Assembly (NCBI GenBank): GCA_021775575.1
Contig: JAJFHO010000173.1
Location: forward strand, 1 to 38,257
DNA: 38,257 nucleotides
DNA from: Hyphomicrobiales bacterium
GTDB lineage: Bacteria; Pseudomonadota; Alphaproteobacteria; Rhizobiales; Methyloligellaceae
Reading direction: 5' to 3'
The notes under the pieces were generated by a model that did not search any database, had not been told where the DNA came from, and saw only the letters and a program-made list of their open reading frames with translations. The translations under genes were made by a program, and so were the position numbers. Positions within the stretch are counted from its first letter, which is position 1. Every line of letters begins with the position of its first letter. Below are positions 2,147 through 20,803 of this stretch, one piece after another.

Positions 2147-3004
2147 ATGTCCGTGAAAGCCGCCACACCAGCTCGCTCCGGCGCCAAGTCCAAACAGCCG
2201 CTGCGCGAGTGGAAGCGTTTCAGATTTCCGCAATCGCTGTATCGTTGGGGCGGTGTGCTGCTGGGGCTGGTGTTCCTGAGCTATTCGGTCGTTTATCTGA
2301 ACATCCCGCTTGAGCGCTTTTTCAACATGTTCGGCCGGGTCGGCACATTGGTAACCGAGCGCTACTATCCGCCCGAGATCGACTATATCACCGAGCCGGA
2401 TTATCTGGCCTCCGTCGTCGACACCATTCAGATGTCCTATCTCGGCGCTCTGTTCGGCATGATCATGGCGGTACCGCTTGGCTGGTTCGGGGCCTACAAC
2501 ATGTCGCCAAGCAAGCGGTTTGTGTATCCGCTCGCCCGGTTCGTGGCCATGAGCGCGCGCTCCGTCCATGAAACCATCTGGGCGATCCTGTTCGTCACCA
2601 TACTCGGCTTCGGCATGATGGCGGGCGTCCTGGCGCTGACGATGTTTTGTGTCGGCTTTGCCGGCAAGCTGTTCGCGGAAGAAATCGAAGCCATCGAGAT
2701 GGGGCCGGTCGAGGCCATCCGCGCAACGGGCGCAAACGAATTTATGGTCATGGTCTATGGCGTATTCCCCCAGGTGCGGGTCGCCTTCACCGGCATCGGC
2801 ATCTACACTTGGGATGTTGCCTTTCGCGCGGCAACCGTCGTTGGCTTCTTCGGCGCGGGCGGCATGGGCTGGTATCTGAAGCGGAATATTCTTCAGATCG
2901 AGACCTACCGGGTCTCGGCAATTCTGGTTTCAATTGTCGTCCTGGTGCTGATTGCCGAGGGCGTATCGGCCTGGGCGCGGGCGCGAGTGGCGAAAGCCAA
3001 ATAA
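2147..3004 (+). CDS. phnE: Phosphonate ABC transporter permease, second subunit
   Basis: This 285-residue paralogue of the preceding permease shares the same architecture and an EAA loop reading EAIRATGANEF then YGVFPQV. Paired phnE genes are common in phosphonate importers. The N-terminus is basic and Lys/Arg-rich before the first membrane helix. A glycine-rich stretch (GFFGAGGMGWYL) lies near the C-terminus, as in other PhnE proteins. The gene begins 2 bases after the first permease gene and ends the transporter operon within this window. The following gene is convergent, with only 17 bases between them and no clear intrinsic terminator. Confidence 0.92.
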   Translation: MSVKAATPARSGAKSKQPLREWKRFRFPQSLYRWGGVLLGLVFLSYSVVYLNIPLERFFNMFGRVGTLVTERYYPPEIDYITEPDYLASVVDTIQMSYLGALFGMIMAVPLGWFGAYNMSPSKRFVYPLARFVAMSARSVHETIWAILFVTILGFGMMAGVLALTMFCVGFAGKLFAEEIEAIEMGPVEAIRATGANEFMVMVYGVFPQVRVAFTGIGIYTWDVAFRAATVVGFFGAGGMGWYLKRNILQIETYRVSAILVSIVVLVLIAEGVSAWARARVAKAK

Positions 3005-3021: not shown

Positions 3022-3900
3022 TCAGCTATCCCGCCTCTCCACGATCGATCCCGCGAGATTGAGGAACTCCCTGATCAATGGCCTGTTCCGCCGCGCCTTC
3101 AGGCAGACGATATAGGCGCGTGTAAACATCTCTGCATCGGTCACGCTCAGGGCCTTGAGTTCGGGATGCGGCGCGAATTCCGTTTCCGAGATAACCCCGA
3201 CGCCCAACCCGCGCACGATCGCTTCCCTCAACCCCTCCCGGCTTTCTATTTCGAAGGCGTGCGCCACCGCCACGCCCCTTTTGATGGCAGCGAGATCGAA
3301 TGCCTCCTGGGTGGTGGAACTGGCGGTGCGCATGATCATTTCTTCACCCTGCAATTCCTTCAGCCGAATATTGCGCCGGCCGGCAAGCCTGTGTTTCCGG
3401 TTCACGACCACAAAAACCCGATGTCTGTTGTAGAACACCGTATGGAAGGTGTCGTTGGCGCAGTCGCGGCCGACAATGCCGATATCGCCACGGAAATCCT
3501 CCAGGTCGCTCAGGACTTCTTCGATCAGTCCAAGGCGAACCGAGCATTTGATTCCAGGCCGCTGCTCGCGCAATGCCGCCAGGAGTTCCATGACGTCATA
3601 GGGGCCGACCGCACTGAACTTCAACTCGCCGACTTCGAGATTCCTGGCGGCCTTGAGGTAGGCAATGGCTTCCTGTTCGTGGCCGTAGAGATCGTTCGTG
3701 ATACCGAAAAGCGACTGCCCCGCCGCGGTCAAACGGATTGCCCGTCCCTTGCGGTGGAACAGCTCGACGCCAAACTGCGCTTCCAGATTGCTCACATGAG
3801 AGGAGATGGTCGGCTGCCCCACATTCAGTTTATCGGCCGCGCGGGTAAAGCCGCCCTCCGCAGCTACGTGATGGAACGCCTCAAGCCACTTTTGATACAT
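3022..3900 (-). CDS. LysR-type transcriptional regulator, probable phosphonate regulator
   Basis: This 292-residue protein begins with a winged helix-turn-helix at residues 1-60 (GGFTRAADKLNVGQPTISSH, then LEAQFGVELFHR and LTAAG), followed by the usual LysR effector-binding domain. It is divergently transcribed from phosphonoacetate hydrolase with about 110 bases between starts, the classical arrangement for a LysR regulator and its target. I therefore infer control of the phnA operon, perhaps with phosphonoacetate or a related metabolite as inducer. LysR regulators are known partners of phosphonoacetate hydrolase genes. I chose ATG 3900 because the conserved N-terminus starts there. An in-frame TTG at 3942 would add 14 residues and neither start has a strong ribosome-binding site. 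Confidence 0.85.
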   Translation of the reverse strand: MYQKWLEAFHHVAAEGGFTRAADKLNVGQPTISSHVSNLEAQFGVELFHRKGRAIRLTAAGQSLFGITNDLYGHEQEAIAYLKAARNLEVGELKFSAVGPYDVMELLAALREQRPGIKCSVRLGLIEEVLSDLEDFRGDIGIVGRDCANDTFHTVFYNRHRVFVVVNRKHRLAGRRNIRLKELQGEEMIMRTASSTTQEAFDLAAIKRGVAVAHAFEIESREGLREAIVRGLGVGVISETEFAPHPELKALSVTDAEMFTRAYIVCLKARRNRPLIREFLNLAGSIVERRDS

Positions 3901-4009
3901 TGATCCAATCGATGATTCGCCGGTCTTTTCCAATTTTACCAAATAACAGGATGAATGCTAGCCTGCTCTTCAAACGAGCCTAACGGTAAACAGAACAGGC
4001 GGGACGGAG
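3901..4009. promoter_or_regulatory. Divergent promoter/operator region, LysR regulator and phnA
   Basis: The 109-base gap holds two small dyads: CAGG-N11-CCTG at 3947-3965 and GCTC-N7-GAGC at 3965-3979. They sit next to an A+T-rich stretch (about 3931-3960). LysR proteins usually bind interrupted dyads of this size between divergent genes. Neither matches the strict T-N11-A form well, so the operator assignment is tentative. I see no convincing -35/-10 pair. Confidence 0.35.
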
Positions 4010-5266
4010 ATGGCTGCGAACGGAACTGAACTCAATGGCGTCACCTACGATATGCCCAAAGACCCGGTTGCGGTCATTTGTATCGATGGCAGCGATCCGG
4101 ATTATTTCGAGGCGGCGCGCGAGGCGGGCGTTATTCCCAATATAACGCGCTATATGACGGATGGTTTCTCGGCAATCGCCCATTGCGTCATCCCGAGTTT
4201 TACCTGTCCCAACAATATGTCGATCGCCACCGGCAGCCCGCCGAAAGTGCATGGTATTTCGGGAAATTTCTATCTCGATCCGAATACCGGCGAAGCGGTG
4301 GTGATGACCGGCCCGGAGTTGATGCGCTCGCGCACGATCTTCGATGTGTTGTCGAAAACGGGGGTGAAAACCCTGGTGGTGACCGCGAAGGACAAGCTGC
4401 GCCAGCAGCTCGGCAAGGATCTGGACGTTTCCCGGGGGAATGTCTGCTTTTCCACCCAGAACGCGGACCGCTGCACAATTGAGGAAAACGGGATTGAGGA
4501 CGCGCTTGGTTTCGTCGGACAGCCGCTGCCCGACATGTATTCAGAGGAGCTGTCTCTGTTCGTGCTGGACGCCGGCATCAAGTCTCTTGAACAGGATGAC
4601 CGTCCGGGTCTGCTCTATCTGTCACTGACGGATTATGTGCAGCATAAATACGCGCCGGACCATCCCAAGGCGCTCGCATTCTACAAGGCGCTGGACGAGC
4701 GCTTTGCGCGGCTGGAAGAACTTGGCGCCATAGTCGCGCTCGTTGCCGACCACGGCATGAAGGACAAATGCGACGCCGACGGCAACTACAACATCATCTA
4801 TCTGCAGGACTTGCTGGATAAGCGCTTCGGGGAGGGCAACACCAAAGTGATCTGCCCGATAACCGATGCCTTTGTCGGCCACCATGGTTCTCTGGGTGGT
4901 TTTGTGCGGGTGCACTGTTTCAACGGCGTAAATGCGCAGGACGCGATCGACTTCATTCGGCCCTTGGAAGGCATCGAGGAAGTGCTGGCGCGCGAGGACG
5001 CGGCGGAGCGGTTTGATCTTCCGCTCGATGTCGAAGCGGACGCGGTCGTAATCTCCGGCGAAAATTACTGTGTTGGCATGGGATGCGACGATCACGATCT
5101 TGCGGGCCTCAACGGCGCGCGGCTCAGGACCCATGGCGGTATTTCCGAGCGCGACGTGCCGTTTGTCATCAGCCGTCCGCTTAACGCCGGCTACCGCGCC
5201 CGGGCGACGTCGGAACAGCTGAAGAATTATCAGATCTTCGACTACGCCATCAACGGCACCAATTGA
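4010..5266 (+). CDS. phnA: Phosphonoacetate hydrolase
   Basis: This 418-residue member of the alkaline phosphatase superfamily should hydrolyse phosphonoacetate to acetate and phosphate with two zinc ions. Visible features in order: metal-ligand motif CIDGSDPDY (Asp26); nucleophile Thr65 in PSFTCPNNMSIATG; Asn86 in HGISGN; a lysine pair, Lys127 and Lys129, where substrate-carboxylate lysines occur in characterised enzymes; Asp208 and His212 in TDYVQH; Asp247-His248 in VADHGMKD; and a late metal histidine near His375 (THGG). These match remembered PhnA enzymes closely. ATG 4010 follows a purine-rich AGGCGGGA. The stop lies 20 bases before the alcohol dehydrogenase start, so the two are probably one operon. 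The hydrolase needs phosphonoacetate made by an upstream dehydrogenase. Confidence 0.92.
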   Translation: MAANGTELNGVTYDMPKDPVAVICIDGSDPDYFEAAREAGVIPNITRYMTDGFSAIAHCVIPSFTCPNNMSIATGSPPKVHGISGNFYLDPNTGEAVVMTGPELMRSRTIFDVLSKTGVKTLVVTAKDKLRQQLGKDLDVSRGNVCFSTQNADRCTIEENGIEDALGFVGQPLPDMYSEELSLFVLDAGIKSLEQDDRPGLLYLSLTDYVQHKYAPDHPKALAFYKALDERFARLEELGAIVALVADHGMKDKCDADGNYNIIYLQDLLDKRFGEGNTKVICPITDAFVGHHGSLGGFVRVHCFNGVNAQDAIDFIRPLEGIEEVLAREDAAERFDLPLDVEADAVVISGENYCVGMGCDDHDLAGLNGARLRTHGGISERDVPFVISRPLNAGYRARATSEQLKNYQIFDYAINGTN

Positions 5267-5286
5267 TCGATCAGGGGGAGAAGCCC

Positions 5287-6384
5287 GTGTCAAAACGAAC
5301 CGCGCGAGCGGCCGTATATGATGCGCCGAACACACCTTTTGTAATCAAGGACTATCCCTTGCGGGATGTGCGTCCTGACGAGGTGCTGGTGCGGATTTCG
5401 ATGTCCACCATATGCCGGTCCGATATCCATTCCTGGGAGGGCAGGCGGCCCAACCCGTGTCCCGGTATCCTCGGGCACGAGATCATTGGCATGATCGATC
5501 AGCTCGGCGGGGATATCGAGCACGATATGCGCGGCGATGTGCTTTCGGTCGGCGACCGGATCACCTGGACGGAATATTTCCATCACGGCCAATCCTACTA
5601 TCGCGACGTTCACGACATGCCGCAGAAATCGCACGGCGTGCGGAAATATGGCCATGACCTGGTGGCGGACGATCCGCATTTCCTCGGCGGATTTGCGGAA
5701 TATTGTTACGTGGTGCCGGGCACCGCCATACTGAAGCTGCCGGATGAGCTGAGCGATGAGGAAGCCACGCCGCTCAATTGCGGCGTTGCGACCATGGTGT
5801 CCGTGACGGAAGCCTCGGAGATTGGATTGGGAGATATTGTCGCCATCCAGGGGCTCGGCCTGCTCGGTCTATACGGTTGCGCGATGGCCAAGGCCCGCGG
5901 CGCACGCCGCGTAATCGGTCTGGACTCGGTCGGTGATCGGCTTGAAGCGGCAAAAAAATTCGGCGCCGACTTCGTCATCGATATCTCGGGGCGCAGCGAA
6001 GACGACGTCGTCGAAGAGGTGCGCAAACTCGCTCCGCCCGACGGCGTCGATGTCGTGATCGAAGTGTGCGGCGTTCCCGATGTGGTCACGGCAGGATTGA
6101 AGATGCTGCGCGTTGGCGGCCGCTACACGCTTGGCGGCATCGTGACGCCCGATGCCAATGTGACGGTCGACGCCAACATGTTCGTGAAAAAGTGGGTCAC
6201 CTTGCGGGGTATCCACAACTACCATCCGCGCCATCTGATACAGGCGCTGGACTTCGTCGTCGCCAATCGCGAGCGTTTTCCGTTCAAGGACATCGTTGAT
6301 TCCAAATTCAAACTTGACGATCTGAACGATGCCTTCAAGCGGGCCTCGGAACGCACGGTCCTGCGCGCGGCGGTTGTTCCATAA
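5287..6384 (+). CDS. Zinc-type (MDR) alcohol dehydrogenase, phosphonate-associated
   Basis: This 365-residue medium-chain dehydrogenase is sandwiched between phosphonoacetate hydrolase and an aldehyde dehydrogenase. Catalytic zinc ligands are visible as Cys43 (STICRSD), His64-Glu65 (GHE) and Cys165 (LNCGVAT). The Rossmann motif GLGLLG is at 189-194, with Asp213 ending the second strand, which suggests NAD rather than NADP. The region that normally carries four structural-zinc cysteines (about residues 98-124) has none. It resembles the family annotated as phosphonate-catabolism-associated alcohol dehydrogenase (TIGR03366, from memory). Start GTG 5287 is preceded by GGGGGAG at 6-base spacing; the upstream in-frame TTG overlapping the phnA stop is rejected. 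I infer oxidation of an alcohol phosphonate to an aldehyde. The substrate is unproven. Confidence 0.82.
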   Translation: MSKRTARAAVYDAPNTPFVIKDYPLRDVRPDEVLVRISMSTICRSDIHSWEGRRPNPCPGILGHEIIGMIDQLGGDIEHDMRGDVLSVGDRITWTEYFHHGQSYYRDVHDMPQKSHGVRKYGHDLVADDPHFLGGFAEYCYVVPGTAILKLPDELSDEEATPLNCGVATMVSVTEASEIGLGDIVAIQGLGLLGLYGCAMAKARGARRVIGLDSVGDRLEAAKKFGADFVIDISGRSEDDVVEEVRKLAPPDGVDVVIEVCGVPDVVTAGLKMLRVGGRYTLGGIVTPDANVTVDANMFVKKWVTLRGIHNYHPRHLIQALDFVVANRERFPFKDIVDSKFKLDDLNDAFKRASERTVLRAAVVP

Positions 6385-6401
6385 AGACGGGGCGGGCAAT
6401 C

Positions 6402-7859
6402 ATGGCGGCTAAAACTCCTGATCTCGGCTTCACGCCGAAGGGCTTGTTCATCGGTGGAGAATGGGTGAGCGCCAGTTCGGGCCGGACCATTACCAGCATC
6501 AATCCTTCCAATGGCGACATTCTGGGAGAAGTGCCGCTCGCAAGCGAGGCGGATGTCGACCGCGCGGTGGCCGCGGCCAGGGCGGCGTTCCCGGGCTGGG
6601 CCGGCCTGCCGGTTACCAAGCGCGCGGAATATCTCATTCGCCTGGCCGACGCGATCGATGAAAATGCCGGCCCTCTGGCACTGATGGACTCCGTGGACAG
6701 CGGCAATGCGATTTCGGGAATGCGCGGCGACATGAAATGGACGTCCGACACTTTCAGATATTTTGCCGGCTTCGTCACCGAGATGAAGGGCGAAACCATG
6801 TCGCGCGAGCCGGGCCATCTCAACCTGACGCTGCGCCAGCCTTATGGCGTCGTTGCCAAGATCAACCCGTTCAACCATCCCTTCCGTTTCTGCGCGGAAA
6901 AGGCGGCTTGTGCATTGGCCGCGGGAAATACGGTGGTGATCAAGGGGCCGGAGCAGGCGCCGCTCTCGAGTCTCAGGCTCGGCGAGCTGTGCGAACAGAT
7001 CTTTCCCGCCGGCGTGGTGAACATCGTGACCGGCGACGGTGCGACCGGCTCGGCCATGGTGCGCCACAAGGATGTGCCGCGCATCGGCTTTGTCGGCTCG
7101 GTGGAAACAGGCCGCATCATTGCGCGCGAAGCGGCTGAAGGTCTCAAAGAGGTGACGCTGGAACTCGGCGGCAAGAATCCGATCGTCATCTTCCCCGATG
7201 CCGATCCGAAGAAGGCGGCGGAGACGGCCGTCAAGTCGATGAATATGAACCGTCAAGGACAGTCCTGCTCATCGACTTCACGCGTGCTGGTGCATAGCTC
7301 GATGCACGACCGGGTCGTTGACGAGCTGGCGAAAATCGTATCCGCGATTCCGATTGGTTTCCCGTGGCTTGAAGGCGCCGAGATGGGGCCGATCGTATCG
7401 CAGCAGCAATATGACCGTGTCATGCGCTACATCGGTTATGGCGGCGAAGACGGCGCGAAGCTGCTCACGGGTGGGGGGAGACCTGACGATGACGACCTCA
7501 AGAAGGGGTTCTTCGTTGCGCCGACCGTATTCGATGGGGTGACGCCGGAGATGCGCATCGGCAGCGAGGAGATATTCGGCCCCGTCATGTCGGTGATGAC
7601 ATGGAGCGATTTCGACGAGATGATCGAGATTGCCAATGGCGTAATGTACGGCCTTACGGCTTCTATCGTGACCAACGATTTCAGCATGGCGATGCGGGCG
7701 GCCGAGCAAATCGAGGCAGGATATGTCTGGGTCAATTCGTCCGGCCGCTATCTCGGCGCGCCCTATGGCGGCTGGAAGCAGAGCGGCCTGGGCAAAGAGG
7801 AAAGCTTCGAGGAGCTATTGAGCTATACGCGCGTGAAAAACGTCAATATGCGCTGGTAG
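6402..7859 (+). CDS. NAD(P)-dependent aldehyde dehydrogenase, possible phosphonoacetaldehyde dehydrogenase
   Basis: This 485-residue ALDH-superfamily enzyme has catalytic Asn158 (INPFNHP), cofactor Lys181 (VVIKGPEQAP), general base Glu254 (LELGGKNP) and nucleophile Cys289 (RQGQSCSST). All key residues are present and the length is normal. It lies 17 bases after the alcohol dehydrogenase, so it probably belongs to the phnA operon. Its likely job is to oxidise phosphonoacetaldehyde to phosphonoacetate, the phnA substrate. The motif around the nucleophile and the C-terminal region differ from the PhnY type I remember from Sinorhizobium and look more like the betaine-aldehyde group. It may therefore be an independent recruit to this step. 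Another aldehyde substrate is possible. Confidence 0.85.
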   Translation: MAAKTPDLGFTPKGLFIGGEWVSASSGRTITSINPSNGDILGEVPLASEADVDRAVAAARAAFPGWAGLPVTKRAEYLIRLADAIDENAGPLALMDSVDSGNAISGMRGDMKWTSDTFRYFAGFVTEMKGETMSREPGHLNLTLRQPYGVVAKINPFNHPFRFCAEKAACALAAGNTVVIKGPEQAPLSSLRLGELCEQIFPAGVVNIVTGDGATGSAMVRHKDVPRIGFVGSVETGRIIAREAAEGLKEVTLELGGKNPIVIFPDADPKKAAETAVKSMNMNRQGQSCSSTSRVLVHSSMHDRVVDELAKIVSAIPIGFPWLEGAEMGPIVSQQQYDRVMRYIGYGGEDGAKLLTGGGRPDDDDLKKGFFVAPTVFDGVTPEMRIGSEEIFGPVMSVMTWSDFDEMIEIANGVMYGLTASIVTNDFSMAMRAAEQIEAGYVWVNSSGRYLGAPYGGWKQSGLGKEESFEELLSYTRVKNVNMRW

Positions 7860-7917: not shown

Positions 7918-10900
7918 TTATTCAGCCGCCTCGGGCGCGCGCGCCATTAATCTGCCCGAGCGTGTCGCACGGTCGATTGCGGCGCGTTTCCAGATCAGGA
8001 ACATCGCCGGAATCACGAGTAACGTGAGGACGGTGGCGCTGACCATGCCGCCGACCATCGGCGCCGCGATCCGGCGCATCACTTCCGAGCCCGTTCCCGA
8101 ACCCATCATGATCGGCAGGAGACCCGCTATGATAACCGATACGGTCATCATGATCGGACGCACGCGCATCAGCGCGCCATCGATGATTGCATCGCGAAGG
8201 TCGTCGCCTGTCAGCGGCCGTTTTTCTTTTTGAACCTGTTCTTCCTTATGGCCGAGCGCCTGATTGAGATAGACGATCATCAATACGCCGATCTCGACGG
8301 CCACCCCGGCCAGGGCGATGAACCCGACGCCGACGGCGACCGAGAGGTTATAGCCCAGCAGATAGAGGAACCAGATACTCCCCACGAGAGAGAGGGGAAG
8401 CGTTCCCATGATGATCATTACGGCCGTCATGTTGCGGAAACTCAGGAACAGCAGCAGAAGAATGATCACCAACGTGACCGGAACGACGACGCTCAGGCGC
8501 TCCTTGGCGCGCTGCATATATTCGAACTGGCCCGACCAGGCGAGCGAGTATCCGGCCGGCAGGTCTATTTGCTGGGCGACAGCGGCCTGCGCGTCGGCGA
8601 CATAGGACCCGATGTCGCGCCCCGTTATATCGACATAAATCCAGCCATTGAGGCGGGCATTCTCACTTCGGATCAAGCCGGGCCCATCCGATATCTTGAC
8701 TGTCGCCACTGAACCCAACGGGATTTGCGCTCCCGAAGGCGTGACCACCGGCAACATCCGCAGACGCTCGAGCGAATTGCGGAATTCGCGCGGGTAACGC
8801 AGATTGACAGGATAACGCTCCAGTCCTTCCACGCTTTCGGTTACTTTCATGCCGCCGACCGCGGTGCGGATAATGTCCTGCACGTCAGCGATATTGAGTC
8901 CGAAGCGCGCAGCGGTCATCCGGTCGATATCCACGTCTATGAAGCGTCCGCCGGTCACGCGTTCCGCATAGACCGATGCGGTTCCCGGCACTTTCTGGAT
9001 CACTTGCTCGATGCGTCTCCCGACCTTGGCGATCACGTCGAGATCGGGACCCGCCACCTTGATTCCGACAGGCGTCTTGATGCCCGTCGCCAGCATGTCG
9101 ATCCGGTTCTTGATCGGCATGATCCAGACATTGGTCAGGCTCGGCACCTGAACCAGCCGGTTCAACTCCTCCCTGATGGTCTGCGTGGTCACCCCCGGGC
9201 GCCATTGATCCTGGGGTTTGAGCCGGATAGTCGTTTCCACCATGGTAAGCGGCGCTGGATCGGTCGCCGTTTCAGCCCGGCCGGCCTTGCCGTAAACCGT
9301 TTCGACCTCGGGTATCGTCTTGATCAGTTTGTTGGTCTGCTGGAGGATCTGCGCCATCTTGCCGGCCGATATCGCCGGATAGGCGCTCGGCATGTAAAGC
9401 AGATCGCCCTCGTCGAGATCGGGCATGAACTCGCTGCCGATCCGTTGCAGCGGCCAGATCATGGAGAGCACGGCGATCAGCGTCACCGCCACCATTCCCC
9501 ACGGATATTTGAGGACGAGGCCAATGAAGGGACGGTAGGCTGCGATCAACGCCCGGTTCACCGGGTTCTTGTGTTCCGGCGTGATGCGCCCGCGGATAAA
9601 ATACCCCATCAGCACCGGAACAATGGTTATGGAAAGTGCGGAGGCCGCCGCCATGGCGTAGGATTTCGTGAAGGCGAGGGGCTGAAACAGCCGGCCTTCC
9701 TGGGCTTGCAGCGCGAAGATCGGCATGAAGCTCAGAGTGATAATAATGAGGGAAAAGAACAGTGGAGGACCGACTTCGACGGTTGCTTCCGCCACCAGAC
9801 GCCAGCGGTTCTGGTCAGTGACTTTCCGCTTCTCGAGATGTTTGTGGTAATTTTCGATCATGACGATCGTGGCGTCGACCATCGCCCCGACGGCGATGGC
9901 GATGCCGCCCAAAGACATGATGTTGGCGTTGATGCCCTGGGCATTCATCACGATGAATGCGGCAAGGATGCCGACCGGCAAACTCAGCACGACAACCAGC
10001 GCGGAGCGTAGGTGGAAGAGGAAGATCGCACAAACCAGCGCGACAACGACGAACTCTTCAACCAACTTCTCCGCCAGCGTGTAGACGGCGCGGTTGATCA
10101 GGTCCGAACGGTCATAGGTCTCGACAATCTCAACACCCTTGGGGAGGCCCTTCTTCAGAGTGGCGAGCTTCTCCTTGACCCGCCGGATCGTCGTCAAAGC
10201 GTTCTCGCCGAACCGCATGATCACAACGCCGCCGACGGCCTCGCCTTCGCCGTCGAGCTCGCCGATGCCCCGGCGCAATTCGGGACCGAGGCGGATGTCG
10301 GCGATATCCTTGAGCAGGACGGGTGTGCCCATCTTGGTGCGGCCGAGCGGGATAGCGCGCAAGTCTTCCAGGCTGTCGATATAGCCGGTTGCGCGAATCA
10401 TATATTCGGCTTCGCCCAGCTCCACGACCCGGCCGCCTGTTTCCTGATTACCGCGCCTGATGGCGTCGCGTACCTTCGAGAGGGTAATATTGTAGGCGCG
10501 CAGGCGGTTGGGATTAACGACCACCTGATATTGCTTGGTCATGCCGCCGATCGTGGCGACCTCCGAAACGCCCTCGACCGTCTGCAGTTCGAATTTCAAG
10601 AACCAGTCCTGAATGCTGCGCAGCTGTGAGAGGTCGCGGCCCCCGGTCCTGTCGATTAGCGCGTATTGGTACACCCAGCCGACGCCGGTTGCGTCGGGCC
10701 CCAGCGCGCTACGTGTGGCACTGGGGAGAGTCGGCGCGACCTGGCTCAGATATTCGAGAACCCGCGATCGCGCCCAATAGAGATCCGTACCGTCTTCAAA
10801 AATAATGTAGACGAAGGAGTCGTTGAAGAACGAGTAGCCCCGCACGGTTATGGCGCCGGGTACGGAAAGCATGGCGGTCGTGAGGGGATATGTCACCTGA

Positions 10901-11088
10901 TCTTCAACGACCTGGGGCGCCTGACCCGGATAGGTGGTCTTGATGATAACTTGAACATCGGAAAGGTCGGGGATGGCGTCGAGCGGTGTCTTCTTGACCG
11001 CGTAAAGGCCCCATCCTGTTATCAGCAGGGTCAGCATAACGACCAGAAACCTGTTCGTGATCGACCATCTGATGATGTTAGCAATCAT
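7918..11088 (-). CDS. cusA: CusA/CzcA-family heavy-metal efflux RND pump, Cu/Ag type
   Basis: This full-length 1056-residue inner-membrane RND transporter exports metal ions using the proton gradient. The N-terminus (WSITNRFLVVMLTLL) and the TM4 acidic motif (AVGAMVDATIVMIEN) are typical of the heavy-metal (HME) group. Methionine-bearing segments DLLYMPS and NRIDMLATGIK match the regions of E. coli CusA that hold copper-binding methionines 573 and 623, favouring Cu(I)/Ag(I) over zinc or cobalt. The last gene of a minus-strand operon, it starts 20 bases after the adaptor gene stop. ATG 11088 has GGAG about 8 bases upstream. The order outer-membrane factor, adaptor, pump is the standard tripartite set. 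Metal choice is inferred from motifs, not shown. Confidence 0.93.
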   Translation of the reverse strand: MIANIIRWSITNRFLVVMLTLLITGWGLYAVKKTPLDAIPDLSDVQVIIKTTYPGQAPQVVEDQVTYPLTTAMLSVPGAITVRGYSFFNDSFVYIIFEDGTDLYWARSRVLEYLSQVAPTLPSATRSALGPDATGVGWVYQYALIDRTGGRDLSQLRSIQDWFLKFELQTVEGVSEVATIGGMTKQYQVVVNPNRLRAYNITLSKVRDAIRRGNQETGGRVVELGEAEYMIRATGYIDSLEDLRAIPLGRTKMGTPVLLKDIADIRLGPELRRGIGELDGEGEAVGGVVIMRFGENALTTIRRVKEKLATLKKGLPKGVEIVETYDRSDLINRAVYTLAEKLVEEFVVVALVCAIFLFHLRSALVVVLSLPVGILAAFIVMNAQGINANIMSLGGIAIAVGAMVDATIVMIENYHKHLEKRKVTDQNRWRLVAEATVEVGPPLFFSLIIITLSFMPIFALQAQEGRLFQPLAFTKSYAMAAASALSITIVPVLMGYFIRGRITPEHKNPVNRALIAAYRPFIGLVLKYPWGMVAVTLIAVLSMIWPLQRIGSEFMPDLDEGDLLYMPSAYPAISAGKMAQILQQTNKLIKTIPEVETVYGKAGRAETATDPAPLTMVETTIRLKPQDQWRPGVTTQTIREELNRLVQVPSLTNVWIMPIKNRIDMLATGIKTPVGIKVAGPDLDVIAKVGRRIEQVIQKVPGTASVYAERVTGGRFIDVDIDRMTAARFGLNIADVQDIIRTAVGGMKVTESVEGLERYPVNLRYPREFRNSLERLRMLPVVTPSGAQIPLGSVATVKISDGPGLIRSENARLNGWIYVDITGRDIGSYVADAQAAVAQQIDLPAGYSLAWSGQFEYMQRAKERLSVVVPVTLVIILLLLFLSFRNMTAVMIIMGTLPLSLVGSIWFLYLLGYNLSVAVGVGFIALAGVAVEIGVLMIVYLNQALGHKEEQVQKEKRPLTGDDLRDAIIDGALMRVRPIMMTVSVIIAGLLPIMMGSGTGSEVMRRIAAPMVGGMVSATVLTLLVIPAMFLIWKRAAIDRATRSGRLMARAPEAAE

Positions 11089-11108
11089 GGCCTGTCTCCG
11101 TCGTCGGG

Positions 11109-12848
11109 TTACTGTTTGCCGCTCTTCGAGAGCGACTCGATGACATAGTCGCCGGCCGCCTTGTCGCGCTTCAGCGTGAAGCCGATGGCATCGCCGGGCT
11201 TCACGGCGTCGATGTCGACGTCCTTGCCGATCCGGAAGTCCATGGTCATCGTCGGCCAGCCGATTGACGGGATCGGTTCATGGGTGATGTTGAGCTTGCG
11301 CTCGCCCGCCTTGACTTCCTTGACGACGCCCGCCGCCGAGACGCCTGAGCTTTTGCTTTTGGCAGCCGCGGCACCGCCTTTAGAGACAGATTCAATGACA
11401 TAGTCACCAGCCGCCTTGTCCTGCTTCAGCGTGAAATTGATGCTGTCGCCGGCTTTCATGGCGTCGATGTCGACGCCCTCACCAATTCGGAAATCCATGG
11501 TCATCGTCGGCCAGCCGATTGACGGGATCGGCTCATGGGTGATGTTGAGCTTGCGCTCGGACATCTTGACCGTATCGATGGTGCCTTTACCGGTGATTTC
11601 CATCTGCGCGTCTGTTTGGGTTTCGGTTTTTTCACCTGCATCGGCCATGCGGAGCAGAGAGGCGTCGAGACTGGCCTCTGAATCGAGGAGGAACTGGCCC
11701 GACGTTACGATCGTCTCGCCTTCGTTCAGGCCGACCACGATCTCAATCATGTCATCGGACTCCATACCCGAGACCACCTGGGCCGGCCGGAAGCGGCCCT
11801 CGCCAAGCGCCAGGATAACGCGCTCCGATTTGCCGGTGCGTATCAGGGCTTCGCGGGGGATGGCGACAACATTTTCCTTCGCTTTCCCGTGAACCGTGAC
11901 TTCGGCATACATATTGGGCTTCAACTGCTCATCCAGATTTTTGAATCGCAACCGAACCCGTATTGTGCGGCTTTGTGGATCGATCGTCGGATAGACGTGA
12001 TCCACCTCTCCTTCCCAGATCTTGCCGGGAAGGAAGGGCAGGCGCATCTCCGCCAGCTGACCTTTCGCCACAATGCCGGCCTGTTGCTCGTAAATCTCCA
12101 CCATGACCCAGATCGAGGACAGATCCGCCAACGTGAAAACGGTTGTTTTAGGCTGAATGAACATGCCCTCGCGGACATTGAGCGCGACGACATATCCATC
12201 CTGCGGCGTGTAGACATCCACAAATTGCTCGATCTTCCGGTTGGATCGCAGTTCCATAATTTGCAGCCGGGACATGCCCAGCGCTTCCAGGCGGGCCAGG
12301 GCGGCCTCGGCCAATATCTTCTGGTCGATCTCAAGCGCCTGGACATATTCGGCCTGGGCGGTCGTGAGTTCCCTGGAATAGAACTGGAACAGCAGACTGC
12401 CTTTTTTGACCCGTTCACCCTCGGTCTTGACGGCAAGGTTTTCGATCCACCCGTCCGTTCGCACGTGAATATCGCGTGTCAGATCGTCATCCGGCGTCAT
12501 AAAGCCCACCGTATGGATCATTTGGTGGAGCGTCTTCTTTTCAACTTTTGCGGTTCTGACGCCGATATTGTTGACGACAGCGGCACTTATTCTGAGGGCC
12601 TTCTCGTCGCCGCCATCTTTTTCCGCGCCCTCATAAACAGGGATCAGGTCCATGCCCATTGGCGATTTTCCCGGATTGTCCTTGCGGAAATCCGGATCCA
12701 TCGGGGCGACCCAATAGAGTATTTTCTTTTCCTGTTTATCGGTTGTAGCCGCAGTGCTCTTGTTGAGCTCAAGCTGCGAGACAGCGTAACCCAGACCGAT
12801 TCCAGCCAGGAGAATGACGGCCGCCGCGCCCAATCCTATTGCTTTCAT
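11109..12848 (-). CDS. cusB: CusB-type periplasmic adaptor with two fused CusF domains
   Basis: The 579-residue membrane fusion protein links the CusA pump to the outer-membrane channel. Domains in order: N-terminal membrane anchor or signal (residues 5-24); a heavy-metal-binding motif with Met-rich PMDPDF and SPMGMDLIP (about 45-72); the adaptor hairpin, lipoyl and barrel core (about 85-400); then two CusF-like copper domains, residues about 420-490 and 505-576. Each has the CusF metal set: His438, Trp446, Met449, Met451, and His523, Trp531, Met534, Met536. CusF normally is a separate periplasmic chaperone passing Cu(I)/Ag(I) to CusB; here two copies are tethered to the adaptor. ATG 12848 lies 8 bases after the upstream gene stop. 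Confidence 0.92.
   Translation of the reverse strand: MKAIGLGAAAVILLAGIGLGYAVSQLELNKSTAATTDKQEKKILYWVAPMDPDFRKDNPGKSPMGMDLIPVYEGAEKDGGDEKALRISAAVVNNIGVRTAKVEKKTLHQMIHTVGFMTPDDDLTRDIHVRTDGWIENLAVKTEGERVKKGSLLFQFYSRELTTAQAEYVQALEIDQKILAEAALARLEALGMSRLQIMELRSNRKIEQFVDVYTPQDGYVVALNVREGMFIQPKTTVFTLADLSSIWVMVEIYEQQAGIVAKGQLAEMRLPFLPGKIWEGEVDHVYPTIDPQSRTIRVRLRFKNLDEQLKPNMYAEVTVHGKAKENVVAIPREALIRTGKSERVILALGEGRFRPAQVVSGMESDDMIEIVVGLNEGETIVTSGQFLLDSEASLDASLLRMADAGEKTETQTDAQMEITGKGTIDTVKMSERKLNITHEPIPSIGWPTMTMDFRIGEGVDIDAMKAGDSINFTLKQDKAAGDYVIESVSKGGAAAAKSKSSGVSAAGVVKEVKAGERKLNITHEPIPSIGWPTMTMDFRIGKDVDIDAVKPGDAIGFTLKRDKAAGDYVIESLSKSGKQ
11239..11304 (-). repeat. Direct repeat copy A inside cusB (second CusF domain)
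   Basis: This 66-base segment is repeated at 11494-11559, exactly 255 bases (85 codons) away in the same orientation. I find one mismatch, at 11277. It encodes the copper-binding core around His523 to Met536 of the adaptor. Similarity continues at a lower level into the rest of the domain, so the repeat is the best-preserved part of a tandem domain duplication. Confidence 0.95.
11494..11559 (-). repeat. Direct repeat copy B inside cusB (first CusF domain)
   Basis: This is the partner of the repeat at 11239-11304, with a single difference at 11532. It encodes the copper-binding core around His438 to Met451. The flanking parts of the two domains have diverged more, so the core was either under strong selection or homogenised by recombination. 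Confidence 0.95.
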
Positions 12849-15746: not shown

Positions 15747-16982
15747 TCAGGACCGGTAGGAATAGCGGGCGCGGTAGTCGAGGGTGGCGGCCGAGAGGCC
15801 CCACACGATCCCGGCCAGCAGAAAATAGTGCCGCCAGTGGTCGGTATCGATCACAATACCTTCAAGAGAAACGCCAAAATAGGTGGCGAAGGCGGCAATC
15901 TGGAAATTCTGCCATGGGCTGGTGATGAGCGCGCATCGCGATCCCACCAGCCATGTCGAGACCACAAAAGCCAAGTAGGCGAAGCCCCCGAGCCAGCCAT
16001 AGGAAGAGAAGCCGTTCAGATAAACATTATGCGCGTCCTGGCCAAAGCGCATGGAGAATCCATACGGACCAAAGCCGAGGGGGTGCTCCAATATTTCCGT
16101 GAGACTGCGCAACTGCGCGCCGAAACGGCCGGTAGCCCCGGCGTCATAGTCCTGAACGAGTTCGGCCCGCGCCATGAATATCTCGCTCACCGAAGGGATT
16201 GCGAGAAGCACCGCAATCAGGGTTCCGGCCAGGCACAGCCCAAGAACGCCGCTGCCAATAATTCTGAGACGCAACAGGTTCGAACCCGATGTCACGAACA
16301 TCAGCCCGGCCATGAGTACGCCGGAGAGCAGCAGATGGCCCCAGGACGCGCGGGAGAAACTCAACAATATCGCGGCCAGTATGGTTGTGAGCATGGCGCC
16401 CGATAGGGCGAGCCGGCGTTTGGGGGAGGAAATTATGTCCTGAACCAGCAGCAGCGCCGGAAGGATCAGAAATGGGGCAAAGACATTGGGATCCTTGAAC
16501 ATGCCGCGCGCGCGGCTGAATTGGGCGAACATGTCGGAGCCCGGAAACAGATGGAAATAACCGGCGATGCCGGCGAGCGCGGCAATCATGGCGGCGGCGA
16601 GATAGGCGCGCCGGATCGTCGACGTGATTTTTTCCGGGCGTTCGGCGCACAGGGCGGCAAATATTATGGTGGAAATCGCGAGGTAGGCGGAAACCGCCAT
16701 GTAGGTAATCGTCCGCATGTCGCTTCCATTCGCCGCCAGCGACAGCGTTCCCCCAACCAGCCAGAATGCGAGCAGAACCACCGGTATGGAAAGCAATCTG
16801 GGAAACCAGGTTCCCCTGATCAGAACGGCCAGGCACAGAAAGCTGAAGACCACCTCGTAGGGCGAGGGCTCCATGAAGACAAAACCACCGGAGAAGATCG
16901 TGATCGCCAGCAGGACGCTTGTCAGGCGCGTCAATCCGGCGCTTCCGACAGCATCACTGTCTGCCCATGCGGCGGAAGACAT
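15747..16982 (-). CDS. O-antigen ligase / Wzy-type polymerase family membrane protein
   Basis: This polytopic protein of 411 residues has about ten hydrophobic segments. A large periplasmic loop near residues 270-320 contains GATGRFGAQLRSLTEILEHPLGFGPYGFS and then AHNVYLNGFSSYGWLGG, the Wzy_C signature shared by O-antigen ligases (WaaL) and polysaccharide polymerases (Wzy, HfsC). It would join lipid-linked repeat units at the periplasmic face of the inner membrane. Its ATG overlaps the stop of the initiating transferase gene (TGATG), indicating translational coupling. Neighbours suggest polymerase of an exported polysaccharide rather than a ligase to lipid A, but sequence alone does not separate these. 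Confidence 0.82.
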   Translation of the reverse strand: MSSAAWADSDAVGSAGLTRLTSVLLAITIFSGGFVFMEPSPYEVVFSFLCLAVLIRGTWFPRLLSIPVVLLAFWLVGGTLSLAANGSDMRTITYMAVSAYLAISTIIFAALCAERPEKITSTIRRAYLAAAMIAALAGIAGYFHLFPGSDMFAQFSRARGMFKDPNVFAPFLILPALLLVQDIISSPKRRLALSGAMLTTILAAILLSFSRASWGHLLLSGVLMAGLMFVTSGSNLLRLRIIGSGVLGLCLAGTLIAVLLAIPSVSEIFMARAELVQDYDAGATGRFGAQLRSLTEILEHPLGFGPYGFSMRFGQDAHNVYLNGFSSYGWLGGFAYLAFVVSTWLVGSRCALITSPWQNFQIAAFATYFGVSLEGIVIDTDHWRHYFLLAGIVWGLSAATLDYRARYSYRS

Positions 16983-18532
16983 CAATAGGCGTTCTTGCTG
17001 GAGAGCAGCGAGAAGGGCGTCTTGATCAAAATGTAGAGATCAAACCAGACCGACCAGTTCTCGATATAGTAGAGGTCATGCTCGACCCGGCGCTCGATCT
17101 TGTCTTTCGTGTCTGTTTCCCCGCGCCAGCCATTGACCTGCGCCCATCCGGTAATGCCCGGTTTTACGCGATGCCGGGCAAAATAGCTGTCGACCACCTC
17201 GTCGTAGAGCGCGTTCGCGGCTTTGGCCTGCAGAGCGTGCGGGCGGGGGCCGACAAGCGAAAGCTCGCCTTTGAGCACATTGATCAGTTGCGGAAGTTCG
17301 TCGAGGCTCGTCTTGCGAATGAAACGGCCGACCGGCGTCACGCGCGGATCGTCTCGCGTCACCAGCTTCGACGCATTCTGGTCCGACTGCTCGGTATACA
17401 TCGAGCGGAATTTGTAGACGCCGATCATTTCGTTGTTGAAGCCATACCGTTTCTGCTTGAAGAAGACCGGGCCACGGCTGTCGAGCTTGATGGCGAGCGC
17501 TACCAGTGCCATCAAAGGCAGAGCGGCAATCAGGGTCAGCAACGAGACGAGCTTGTCGAATGACCATTTGAGGACGCTGTCCCAGTCCGCGATCGGCCTG
17601 TCCTGAACGTCGATGAAGGGAACATTGCCGATATAGGAATAAGTGCGGGGGCGGAACCGCAGCTTGTTGGTGTGCGCTGACAGACAGATGTCGACCGGCA
17701 GCACCCAAAGCTTTTTCAGCAACTGCAGCAGGCGGTTTTCAGCCGTTATCGGAAGTGTGACGATCAAAAGGTCGAGGCGCATTTTGCGGCCGAATTTGAC
17801 AAGCTCATCGATATTTCCAAGCTTCGGATATCCGGCGATGCGCTTATCGACGCGCTCCTCGCTGCGGTCGTCGAATATGCCGTAAATCCGGATATCCGTA
17901 TCGCTGGAGGCTTCGAGCGCCTTGATAAGGTCGCGCGCCGCCGGGCCACCCCCGACGATGACCGCCCTTCGGTTGAGACGCCCCTCGCGGGCCCAGCTCC
18001 TGAGCGTCGTGCTTAGCGCCGCCCTGAAACCAGTGAGCACAAACAAACCGATCAGATACCAGGATGCCAGCCAGAAACGGGAATATTCAATTCCCAGTTT
18101 CATAAAGAAGGCGATTACGGCAAGGAGCGCAAAGACAAGCGTCCAGGCCGCGCCAATCCGTGTGAGTTGCCGGGAGATGCTCGTCAGGGTCGATAGATCA
18201 TAGAGCTGAAAAGCCTGAAAGCTGAGAATGGAGGCGGCCGACGCGGTTGTAATGGCGAGCCCATAAAGGACGTAGCCGGTGTAACCCTCGAATGCCGAAG
18301 GGCCGCCTAGGTAGGCGGCGAAGATGCCGTAGCCCAGGCATGCGACGATGACGAATTCGGCGAGCCGGACCGCACCGCAGACGACAACCGGAGAAATCAG
18401 GCCGGAGCTGTCGCTGAATTTGAAATTGGCAAGGCGCGGACGCGGGAAACGCCGGCGCTCGATATCATGCTCGGCGGCCTTCGAAGAGGACAGTTCCTGG
18501 ACACCGCGTTTCAGCACGGGAATGTCAGACAT
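16982..18532 (-). CDS. Polyprenyl-phosphate sugar-1-phosphate transferase (WcaJ/HfsE type)
   Basis: This 516-residue initiating transferase moves a sugar-1-phosphate onto undecaprenyl phosphate to start a polysaccharide repeat unit. The N-terminal half has four to five membrane helices and a CoA-binding-like Rossmann segment ([16 protein letters not shown]). The C-terminal third is a complete bacterial sugar transferase domain with [39 protein letters not shown] and the [13 protein letters not shown] motif. I chose ATG 18532 with AGGGG at 9-base spacing over a TTG 9 bases upstream. It is translationally coupled to the downstream ligase/polymerase gene. The sugar could be glucose or galactose; the domain does not decide. 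Confidence 0.9.
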
Positions 18533-18599
18533 TGCACTCAACCCCTATTGCGCGATACATGCCCCGTTGGCCAAGCACCCCCCGTGCCAGGTTCGGTTT

Positions 18600-18628
18600 T
18601 TGCTATTATTCGGTATCGTGCGGGTCAA
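18600..18628 (-). promoter_or_regulatory. Candidate sigma-70 promoter upstream of the sugar transferase gene
   Basis: On the minus strand TTGACC (18628-18623) is followed after 17 bases by TAGCAA (18605-18600), about 70 bases before the ATG. The -35 is close to consensus and the -10 is weak. The gap 18533-18768 otherwise holds no gene. Confidence 0.35.
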
Positions 18629-18691
18629 ATATGCCGGAAGAGGCTCAGCGAAGGCTTAATCGGCGCCAAATCTGCTTCGCCGACTGTTTTT

Positions 18692-18699
18692 ATGGTTAA
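18692..18699 (-). promoter_or_regulatory. CtrA-like half-site TTAACCAT upstream of the sugar transferase gene
   Basis: The octamer TTAACCAT is read on the minus strand. It is the half-site form recognised by the alphaproteobacterial cell-cycle regulator CtrA. It lies about 65 bases upstream of the candidate promoter of this operon. No second TTAA at the standard spacing is present, so on its own the evidence is weak. It gains some weight from the second site at 20686-20705. Confidence 0.3.
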
Positions 18700-18768
18700 A
18701 GCGTTGTTTCCGAACGCAGATCTTGATCAGCGAAGAGGGGCGGGAATCAAAACAACGCAAAGGGCTTG

Positions 18769-19923
18769 TCAGCTGCGCTCATTTGCGCTGGTCGTGCGCT
18801 CGAACAGGCGTTCGTAGCTGTCCAGGATTGTTTTCGCCATTTGCGGCGCCTGGTATCGTTCTGACACAGTTTTTTGCAGAATTCCGGCCCGGTCCGCGTA
18901 ACCCGCCGGGTCGTCGAGGAAATTCTCCATCTGCACGATCAGCGCCGCCGTGTCTCCCGGTGGCACGAGGTCCATGCCTGTTTTCGCAACGATCTCCGGA
19001 ATGCCGCCGACATGTGTCAGGATCATCGGGATCCGCGCCGCGGCCGCCTCGAGGACGATATAGGGAAAGGATTCGGCCCGCGACGGCAGAACGATACAGC
19101 GTCCGAGCGCAAACGCCTCGCGCGCCGGCATGGCGCCTGTGAAGGTGACACTTGCGCCCAGCTGCAGCTGTTGCGCCATGCGCTGGAATTCGGCCTCGTC
19201 GGGGCCCGAGCCGACAATCCTTGCCGTTGCTTTTTCTTTTTGTCTCATTCCGGCGAGCGCGTTGAGCAGGATGTCGACCCCCTTGAGGTGGCGCAGCTCC
19301 CCGACAAACAGAAAATCCGCCGCATCCCTTGACGGTTTAACCGCCTTGAATTCCTCGGGCCACAGCCCGTTTGGTGCAACCGCGACCTCGCATGGGAACG
19401 GCGCCACCTTTATCTCGTAGAGGCCGGCTGAATACTGACTTTCAAAAACAAGAATATCGGTGAGCGGCGCCAGCAGTTTTTCCAGCGTGTGAAAAATACA
19501 CCCGGCAATGCTTGCGCGATCATAGTGCAGGCTGCCGCCATGCGGCGTATAGCAGGCAAATATCTTGTGCCCGCCTTTTTTCATCACGGCAGCCGCTAGC
19601 CGTGCATAAGCTCCTCCCTTGGCGCCGTGGCCATGCAGGATTTGGGCATTCGCTTCGATTGCAAGGCGGCGTACCGCGCGCGTCGCCGATATGTCGCGCA
19701 ATCCGATATGGCGACTCATGGCAATGCGCCCAATCCCGAGCGCGCAATAAGGATCGAGGCCGGCAAGGGCCTGGCGCGCCGAGGCGCCGCCGGAGCCGGA
19801 GTCGCAAATAATACCGACCGAATGTCCGGCATTTGCCTGGGCCTTGACCAGATCGCGGACATGGCGAAACAGGCCGCCGACAGGCGCACGGAGACAGTGA
19901 AGAATTCGGCGTTGATGTGTCAC
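18769..19923 (-). CDS. GT4-family glycosyltransferase
   Basis: This 384-residue GT-B glycosyltransferase has an N-terminal glycine-rich loop (APVGGLFRHV) and a linker to the C-terminal domain (DFLFVGELRHLKGVDILL). The GT4 EX7E-type donor site reads ESFPYIVLE, followed by THVGGIPEIV. It would transfer a nucleotide-sugar-derived residue to a lipid-linked acceptor in the cytoplasm. It lies 37 bases downstream of the Wza-like gene on the same strand, probably in one operon with it. The only plausible start is GTG 19923 and it has a poor ribosome-binding site. A 236-base gap separates it from the transferase gene downstream, which has its own candidate promoter. Confidence 0.87.
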   Translation of the reverse strand: MTHQRRILHCLRAPVGGLFRHVRDLVKAQANAGHSVGIICDSGSGGASARQALAGLDPYCALGIGRIAMSRHIGLRDISATRAVRRLAIEANAQILHGHGAKGGAYARLAAAVMKKGGHKIFACYTPHGGSLHYDRASIAGCIFHTLEKLLAPLTDILVFESQYSAGLYEIKVAPFPCEVAVAPNGLWPEEFKAVKPSRDAADFLFVGELRHLKGVDILLNALAGMRQKEKATARIVGSGPDEAEFQRMAQQLQLGASVTFTGAMPAREAFALGRCIVLPSRAESFPYIVLEAAAARIPMILTHVGGIPEIVAKTGMDLVPPGDTAALIVQMENFLDDPAGYADRAGILQKTVSERYQAPQMAKTILDSYERLFERTTSANERS

Positions 19924-19960
19924 AAGAAACAGCGATAAGGGCTTTTGGTTTCCGAAAAGA

Positions 19961-20629
19961 TCAGAACAGGCGCTCCTTCACGTAAATCGTGTCGCCGGGC
20001 TGGACGAGGTGAGAACTGGACACCTGCATTGTAACGGACCGGCCGTTGGTCTTGCGGGTCAATTTGAATTTCTTCTCGCGAGCCCGCTCGGTGTAACCGC
20101 CCGCGATCGCAACGGCGGTCTGCAGCGTCATGCCGTTCACATAGGGGAATTGGCCGGGACGGCGGACTTCGCCGAGGATGAAGAATGGCCTGTAGACCGC
20201 CACCTCGACGGTGACCTTCGGGTCCTTCACATATTTCGAGCGCAATTTTGCGGCGATTTTGTCTTCAAGTTCGAATGTGGTCGATGCTTGCGCTTTGACG
20301 GCGCCGATCAGCGGCATGGAAATAAAGCCGCTGCCGTCAACCGAATAGGTCCGCGAGAGATTCTCCTGTCCGAATACGACGACCCTCAACCGGTCGCCGC
20401 TATCCAGCCGGTAGAGCTGTTCCGGGGTTTGCGGTGCCTCGGCTGTTGTCAGCCAGCTGGCATGACTGGCGGCCATGGACGGGCGCAGTTGATGCGGTTG
20501 AGCCATTGTCGTGGAAGAAATGGCTGCAGGATGCGCCGTCCGCTTGGCCTTGCGAAATTTCGACGAATGTTTGCAGCCGGACAGAGCCAGGGCGATTGCG
20601 GCTGTGATCATGACAATGCGAATGAACAT
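19961..20629 (-). CDS. Short Wza/HfsD-like polysaccharide export lipoprotein
   Basis: This 222-residue lipoprotein has signal MFIRIVMITAAIALALSGC (lipobox L-S-G-C, Cys19). It then carries a Poly_export domain (YRLDSGDRLRVVVFGQENLS, with DGSGFISMPLIG) and one SLBB domain (FFILGEVRRPGQFPYVNGM). It ends soon after (LVQPGDTIYVKERLF), without the extra domains and C-terminal outer-membrane helix of E. coli Wza (about 379 residues). It should form or gate the outer-membrane exit for polysaccharide. Its small size fits the HfsD/GumB-type proteins. It is divergent from the Wzc-like gene across a 174-base region and is followed by the GT4 gene. Confidence 0.9.
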   Translation of the reverse strand: MFIRIVMITAAIALALSGCKHSSKFRKAKRTAHPAAISSTTMAQPHQLRPSMAASHASWLTTAEAPQTPEQLYRLDSGDRLRVVVFGQENLSRTYSVDGSGFISMPLIGAVKAQASTTFELEDKIAAKLRSKYVKDPKVTVEVAVYRPFFILGEVRRPGQFPYVNGMTLQTAVAIAGGYTERAREKKFKLTRKTNGRSVTMQVSSSHLVQPGDTIYVKERLF

Positions 20630-20803
20630 CGAAGGACCGGCTTTTCCTCTACAAGGCGAATCTGTAAGGAGTTTTTACCGCCGGGATGGTTAAAAAAGAT
20701 TAACCGCGCGTGTCAGGCTGGTCCAAACCTTAAGCCTTTGGTTACCGGAAGGCGGTATCACTCATGAGAGTTGGACATGTAAACAGTGAGTCTGAGTAGG
20801 GCC
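20630..20803. promoter_or_regulatory. Divergent promoter region of the export genes, with CtrA-like dyad
   Basis: This region between the Wza-like and Wzc-like genes contains a perfect dyad GGTTAA-N6-TTAACC at 20688-20705. Read on the minus strand this is TTAA-N6-TTAACCAT (20703-20686), close to the CtrA consensus TTAA-N7-TTAAC and including the TTAACCAT octamer. Known CtrA sites usually have a 7-base spacer, so the fit is near but not exact. A symmetric operator for another regulator is the alternative. The two genes could share this control. Confidence 0.42.

Follow-up and report, generated by a model that had tools for sequence, protein, structure and literature searches.

A phnA-linked alcohol and aldehyde dehydrogenase module as a candidate pathway for 2-hydroxyethylphosphonate in a Hyphomicrobiales bacterium

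The window considered here is a stretch of 38,257 nucleotides from a Hyphomicrobiales bacterium (GenBank assembly GCA_021775575.1, contig JAJFHO010000173.1) that begins at the first base of its contig, C83 of the 4.06-Mb draft genome G000 (281 contigs), and carries a compact phosphonate gene cluster at its left end. The core of the cluster is a triad on the forward strand. phnA (4010–5266) encodes a phosphonoacetate hydrolase that scores 536.5 bits against TIGR02335 (cut-off 407.55), matching profile positions 2–407 of 408, and 392 bits against the structure 3szy; a tree described below places it in an ADH-linked clade. It is followed by the gene for a predicted zinc-dependent NAD alcohol dehydrogenase (ADH; 5263–6384, PF08240 and PF00107), the proposed 2-hydroxyethylphosphonate (HEP) dehydrogenase, and by that for an aldehyde dehydrogenase (ALDH; 6402–7859, PF00171), the proposed phosphonoacetaldehyde dehydrogenase, which belongs to a family other than PhnY and scores 452.8 bits against the betaine-aldehyde dehydrogenase (BADH) model TIGR01804 (cut-off 668.6). 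With mechanically called starts, of which the TTG start of the ADH is uncertain, phnA and the ADH gene overlap by 4 bases and the ADH and ALDH genes are 17 bases apart, so the triad very likely forms a single operon.

A gene for a LysR-type regulator (3022–3942, reverse strand) diverges from phnA; its best model is TIGR03339 (phn_lysR, 278.9 bits, under the cut-off of 341.1). Further left on the forward strand lie the genes of a phosphonate importer: phnD (3–458), for the phosphonate-binding protein, with its 5' part cut by the contig end (TIGR03431, 135.7 bits over profile positions 142–287, cut-off 261.1; PF12974); phnC (553–1323), for the ATPase (TIGR02315, 309.5 bits, cut-off 266.1); and two phnE permease genes (1323–2144 and 2147–3004; TIGR01097, 242.8 and 233.5 bits, cut-off 216.7). 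phnC and both phnE genes exceed the cut-offs of the PhnCDE models. The tight one-strand triad with a divergent LysR gene and an adjacent phnDCEE importer, as described in the sequence-only reading, is thus borne out gene by gene by profile scores, with phnD partial.

Together, these genes probably make up an accessory pathway of the hydrolytic phosphonate type that would provide the cell with phosphorus and carbon. Its PhnCDEE importer would take up HEP, the zinc- and NAD-dependent ADH would oxidize it to phosphonoacetaldehyde, the BADH-like ALDH would convert this aldehyde to phosphonoacetate, and PhnA would cleave phosphonoacetate to acetate and phosphate. The LysR protein would control the operon, probably in response to a phosphonate of the pathway. 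PhnA of P. fluorescens has phosphonoacetate as its substrate and takes 2-phosphonopropionate to a lesser extent (PMC10574752). Since PhnA acts on phosphonoacetate, the substrate of the ALDH would most simply be phosphonoacetaldehyde and that of the ADH its alcohol. The ADH likewise probably yields phosphonoacetaldehyde from HEP because that aldehyde feeds most of the gene sets found, whether by the PhnX or the PhnA route. We infer the HEP substrate, phosphonoacetaldehyde as the shared intermediate, the direction of flow, the cofactor, the specificity of the importer and the regulation. The same sequence of alcohol, aldehyde, phosphonoacetate, and acetate plus phosphate had been proposed in the earlier reading; it stands as the best explanation and is strengthened by the survey below, with the substrate still a deduction, although phnW is present elsewhere in the genome.

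The scheme resembles the PhnW-PhnY-PhnA pathway for 2-aminoethylphosphonate, with which it would share the conversion of phosphonoacetaldehyde to phosphonoacetate and then to acetate and phosphate, PhnA itself, and a LysR-type regulator. It differs in having the ADH in the place of phnW, a BADH-like ALDH for PhnY, and a PhnA of a separate clade.

Compared with 3szy, the window PhnA keeps the threonine (alanine in 3t02), the AKDK lysines, TDYVQH, ADHGMK and THGG, which we take to be active-site motifs for catalysis and metal binding. A quick tree of 93 rows (90 different), after dropping rows with stops or with fewer than 300 residues matched, has a branch with support 100 that sets all 60 ADH-linked rows and two survey rows apart from the rest; one of these survey rows (L030) is the same G306 gene as L113. 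The other side holds 31 rows, 25 linked to phnW and 6 from the survey, and sampling is uneven, this side being drawn from the class survey and three paralogues only. Both phnA copies of G000, G044 and G122 are split across the branch. Because it separates ADH-linked from phnW-linked copies, the tree says that the ADH-linked PhnA is an old lineage and not a recent copy.

Only zinc-dehydrogenase models match the ADH, PF08240 and PF00107 among them; a PbfF-like (pfam02826) enzyme and an iron ADH were therefore rejected as candidates for its identity. Its zinc ligands C51, H72, E73 and C173 are invariant in all 81 aligned ADHs, as is D221, which we take to be the residue typical of NAD use. At least three cysteines of the structural zinc loop occur in only four of the 81 (L109, L113, L118 and L121), and the window ADH is not among them. 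Also invariant throughout are R52, R62, K128, H131, H139 and a block running H318-N-Y-H-P-R323, which aligns with W-V-S-D-T-S in 1vj0, a structure that lacks the block. R52, R62 and the H318–R323 block could, on this conservation, bind the phosphonate. A structural model (mean predicted local distance difference test score, pLDDT, 93.6) has 1vj0 as its nearest PDB entry, with Z 48.9, a root-mean-square deviation of 1.7 over 361 residues and 27% identity. The predicted fold is that of an ordinary zinc ADH and names no substrate. The best NCBIfam model is TIGR03366 (HpnZ_proposed, putative phosphonate catabolism associated alcohol dehydrogenase), a hypothetical model whose listing states no reaction. 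The window ADH (287.8 bits) and nine scanned relatives (282.0–309.9 bits) all fall under its cut-off of 328.1.

In the ALDH alignment, C289, E254 and N158 are invariant in 38 of 38 sequences (four short ones of 42 were left out). Identity with PhnY was considered and rejected, the score against TIGR03250 being 233.9 bits versus a cut-off of 635.65.

Linkage between phnA and the ADH is evident at several taxonomic depths. In a survey of 385 genomes of the class, 44 have phnA over the cut-off and 7 have ADH matches at a threshold of E 1e-60. Four of these matches, including that of the source genome, are 64–100% identical, and each lies directly behind phnA (4 of 4); the other three are 34–36% identical and are not counted as orthologues, one of them (G281) lying ∼5 kb from phnA. 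Because all four orthologues found in the 385 genomes stand directly behind phnA, the arrangement is not chance. Within the bacterium's own family the ADH occurs in 8 of 30 genomes, at 79–89% identity in the other seven.

A wider scan used an alignment of four ADHs against 84,980 species genomes, and the best 80 of 117 loci were kept; the ADHs at these loci are 56–90% identical to that of the window. Carriers are mostly Alpha-, Beta- and Gammaproteobacteria, joined by metagenome-assembled genomes (MAGs) titled Spirochaetaceae, Gemmatimonadota, Chloroflexi, Planctomycetaceae and Deltaproteobacteria, for which the usual caution over binning applies. One named carrier is Limnohabitans sp. MMS-10A-178 (L139). 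The labels of L071 (Gemmatimonadetes) and L072 (Spirochaetaceae) are MAG titles, and since their ADHs closely resemble those of Hyphomicrobiaceae, either gene transfer or misbinning may be involved. phnA lies within 200 bp upstream of the ADH in 58 of the 80 loci, or 56 of the 74 that have at least 400 bp of upstream sequence. A BADH-like ALDH gene follows within 400 bp in 39 loci and is found anywhere in the locus in 42. The full triad is present in 35 loci, only one of which (L096) has phnW in the same locus. In nine loci the ADH comes directly after phnCDEE.

The ALDH and PhnY appear to be alternatives. The BADH-like ALDH is encoded in 42 of the 80 loci and PhnY in 16, and the two occur together in none. 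In L125 a true PhnY (843.5 bits) stands in the place of the ALDH behind phnA and the ADH, with phnW not found in the locus. As the two never share a locus and PhnY takes the ALDH position in L125, the pattern suggests that they may do the same job and be interchangeable. An ADH confined to clusters lacking phnW is contradicted by the wider sample: phnW lies within 1 kb behind the ADH in 16 of the 80 loci, mostly titled Betaproteobacteria, many of which carry PhnY and a PhnR-type regulator. In these betaproteobacterial loci the ADH looks like an added entry point. Taken together, sequence comparison supports the gene identities, their order, the catalytic residues, the linkage and the separate PhnA clade.

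The left end of the contig falls within phnD, and a phnW gene just past it was considered. This candidate was rejected, as the close relatives L065, L067 and L068 show no match to phnW in the 4.1–4.2 kb left of phnD, where the sequence-only reading had suggested looking for an aminotransferase. Five genes scanned among the open frames of these flanks are unrelated to phosphonates and to one another.

Elsewhere in the source genome the situation is different from that on C83. Genome-wide profile searches list no match on C83 to phnW, PhnJ, PhnX, PbfA or class III aminotransferases, and find neither PhnJ nor PhnX anywhere in the genome. The earlier statement that phnW, phnX and C-P lyase genes are absent therefore holds for the contig, and for PhnX and PhnJ genome-wide, but not for phnW, which lies at C237:1083–2141 (TIGR02326, 496.1 bits, cut-off 400.8). 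Its neighbourhood also contains a second phnA, truncated by the contig edge, together with genes for a LysR regulator, an FAD-GcvT oxidoreductase, an iron ADH, an ALDH, a glutamine-synthetase-like protein, PbfA (661.4 bits, cut-off 525) and an ATP-binding cassette importer of a different type, the importer and iron-ADH labels being partly our own judgement. A phnA end matching the part missing on C237 is found at C165:1–258, where the next gene is a true PhnY (761.1 bits, TIGR03250). The 2-aminoethylphosphonate pathway is thus predicted to have its own cluster, with the window triad as a second module that has another importer and other dehydrogenases. Each of the four class genomes keeps phnW apart, clustered with a phnA and PhnY of its own in G000 (C237/C165), G044 and G122 and with PhnX in G306. 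The C237 region (L017 5431–14282) and L083 2–4398 have PbfA, the glutamine-synthetase-like gene, the ALDH and the iron ADH in identical order, followed in L017 by a class-I glutamine amidotransferase and the FAD-GcvT oxidoreductase. The shared gene set is reminiscent of a pathway in which an amino alcohol is gamma-glutamylated.

Pathway genes were also surveyed across 54 ADH-bearing genomes, namely those of 50 of the 80 loci together with G000, G044, G122 and G306; L070, L105, L116, L117, L108, L111, L113 and L122–L144 were left out (L108, L111 and L113 are contigs of G044, G122 and G306). Over cut-off are phnW in 34 genomes, phnA in 47, PbfA in 21, PhnX in 9, PhnY in 19 and PhnJ in 5. By profile search PhnJ is not found in the other 49, the source genome included. 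Thirty of the 50 surveyed loci are triads, and 12 of these are in genomes without phnW. Ten of the 12 also lack PbfA, PhnX, PhnY and PhnJ above cut-off, FAD-dependent Pbf enzymes being outside this search. Two of the ten, L104 (5.73 Mb) and L107 (3.64 Mb), each consist of one record titled chromosome 1 that is as long as the genome, so an assembly gap is an unlikely cause of the missing phnW. No phnA is present at 14 of the 50 loci. L069 and L076 have the ADH with the ALDH, and the other 12 have the ADH without either partner. In 8 of these 12 the ADH is directly behind phnE, in 8 the genome holds phnW, phnA and PhnY elsewhere, and in two genomes (G410 and G432) phnW and PhnX are present and phnA is not found.

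Several observations weigh against the proposed HEP pathway. phnW in the source genome means that the module could also take phosphonoacetaldehyde derived from 2-aminoethylphosphonate. Most of the triad genomes searched (18 of 30) likewise have phnW somewhere. Because the surveyed assemblies are mostly drafts, a missing gene carries little weight outside L104 and L107, and G433, one of the ten genomes noted above, has a PhnX-like match of 115.1 bits, under the cut-off of 220. FAD-dependent Pbf enzymes are another source of phosphonoacetaldehyde. The module is also not always complete, with ADH and ALDH but no phnA in L069 and L076, and phnA and ADH without the ALDH in L102 and L110. The last two lone-ADH loci (L090 and L092) belong to genomes without phnW, phnA or PhnX over threshold, and G410 also holds PhnJ and PbfA. 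Finally, an assayed enzyme of this ADH kind was not found in the searchable open-licence literature. In L069 (1–4241) only 48 bases, without a phnA, separate the end of lysR from the ADH, and no phnA is found in that genome either, which reflects either loss or an assembly gap.

Other explanations place a different demand on the ADH. It may oxidize another phosphonate alcohol, such as a HEP analogue bearing a methyl group, with the ALDH making phosphonoacetate or a homologue that PhnA accepts. This is unlikely, even though P. fluorescens PhnA also takes 2-phosphonopropionate, less well (PMC10574752), and the ADH superfamily is so broad that sequence alone leaves the alcohol unfixed: HEP is a known marine phosphonate (PMC9381506, PMC5649143), and in G410 and G432 the ADH occurs without phnA and with PhnX, which hydrolyses phosphonoacetaldehyde (PMC12366243), although phnW in those genomes explains PhnX without the ADH. 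A different and rather improbable possibility is that the ADH runs in reverse or serves as an overflow, turning surplus phosphonoacetaldehyde into HEP, and that the pathway actually starts from an aminophosphonate, which PhnW, PbfA or an FAD enzyme encoded elsewhere would process. The source genome does hold phnW and PbfA, the gene stands between phnA and phnW in a mostly betaproteobacterial branch, and PhpC, the phosphonoacetaldehyde reductase of phosphonate biosynthesis, catalyses the reaction in this sense (PMC9381506). However, PhpC is an iron ADH of a different family (PMC9381506), phnW of the source genome already has its own phnA and PhnY, and ten triad genomes, including the two that are single chromosome records, show no phnW, PbfA, PhnX, PhnY or PhnJ that passes its cut-off.

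It is very unlikely that the cluster serves phosphonoacetate itself or other imported phosphonates, with the ADH and ALDH as mere neighbours that act on an unrelated alcohol. The phnA cluster of P. fluorescens 23F for phosphonoacetate does have a LysR regulator and putative transporters (PMC10574752), and the ALDH resembles betaine-aldehyde dehydrogenases. Chance neighbours are hard to reconcile with phnA-ADH adjacency in 56 of 74 loci from MAGs and genomes assigned to several phyla, with the separation of ADH-linked PhnA in the tree, or with an ADH placed directly after phnCDEE in nine loci.

The HEP pathway can also be set beside published systems. PbfA, PbfB/C/D and PbfF, from the Peracchi group, are likewise accessory enzymes that feed phosphonates as phosphonoacetaldehyde into the PhnX or PhnY-PhnA routes. 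PbfF is a pfam02826 NAD racemase for 2-amino-1-hydroxyethylphosphonate (PMC12366243), in contrast to the window ADH, a zinc enzyme of the medium-chain dehydrogenase/reductase type. HEP dehydrogenase had been listed as a possible role of PbfF and was excluded by assay, and HEP as an input to hydrolytic pathways has already been suggested in print (PMC12366243). PhpC interconverts phosphonoacetaldehyde and HEP as the window ADH would, but is an iron ADH of phosphonate biosynthesis (PMC9381506). Carbon–phosphorus (C-P) lyase also frees phosphorus from HEP but gives ethylene, as in Sulfitobacter with C-P lyase (PMC5649143). A text search of one review (PMC10574752) gives no match for hydroxyethyl, and titles and abstract beginnings in the open-licence literature report neither a HEP dehydrogenase in catabolism nor this module. 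The module is plausibly a variant of the hydrolytic phosphonate pathways, with a HEP route that is suggested but not demonstrated in the searchable literature.

Some loci contain additional genes around the module. In two close relatives, L066 1069–5506 (on the same contig as L156) and L155 10839–15450, ∼4–4.6 kb separate the second phnE from lysR; the L066 insert has no relation to phosphonates, its products being an efflux protein, a multicopper oxidase and a cupredoxin. The ADH is directly preceded by a DUF3604 gene plus one of the sulfatase family in L093 6376–9985 and L097 6165–9979 (one of the pair scanned), and the L093 sulfatase-family protein is a better match to sulfatases than to phosphonate monoester hydrolases. 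A metallophosphoesterase gene directly precedes the ADH in L091 9176–9991, and MGH1-like glycosidase genes lie between phnA and the ADH in L118 (5492–9806) and L121 (one of the pair scanned). As a lead only, such esterase- and glycosidase-like genes might free HEP from esters. Distant PhnA-like proteins of 179–186 bits, under cut-off, are encoded at G306:C64, G405:C56 and G415:C7; those of G405 and G415 adjoin a distant PhnY-like gene of 504–511 bits, and a different substrate is perhaps involved. After the triad, the window itself has a CusA/CzcA-type metal efflux gene on the reverse strand and a CusB-like adaptor ending in two CusF-type domains (7918–12848). Further along are genes for sugar transferases and Wzz-type proteins (16982–22951) and one for a PhaC-type polymerase (33037–34914).

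A broader form of the proposal strikes us as evenly balanced between holding and failing: that the module represents a widespread, dedicated mineralization of HEP by an importer, a HEP dehydrogenase, a non-PhnY ALDH and a PhnA of its own clade, releasing phosphate without C-P lyase or ethylene and, in some lineages, fed by neighbouring esterase- and glycosidase-like genes that free HEP from polysaccharide esters. Together, HEP and methylphosphonate contribute as much as 20% of the phosphorus present in marine organic matter of high molecular weight (PMC9381506), and the HEP route shown in the literature examined is the ethylene-forming one through C-P lyase (PMC5649143). If the pathway is real, a hydrolytic route would alter how HEP turnover and ethylene release are counted, and a function would be suggested for dehydrogenases that a database model tags merely as phosphonate-associated. 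Part of the phnA in metagenomes would then not report the use of 2-aminoethylphosphonate, and the PhnA tree provides a marker to tell ADH-linked from phnW-linked phnA apart.

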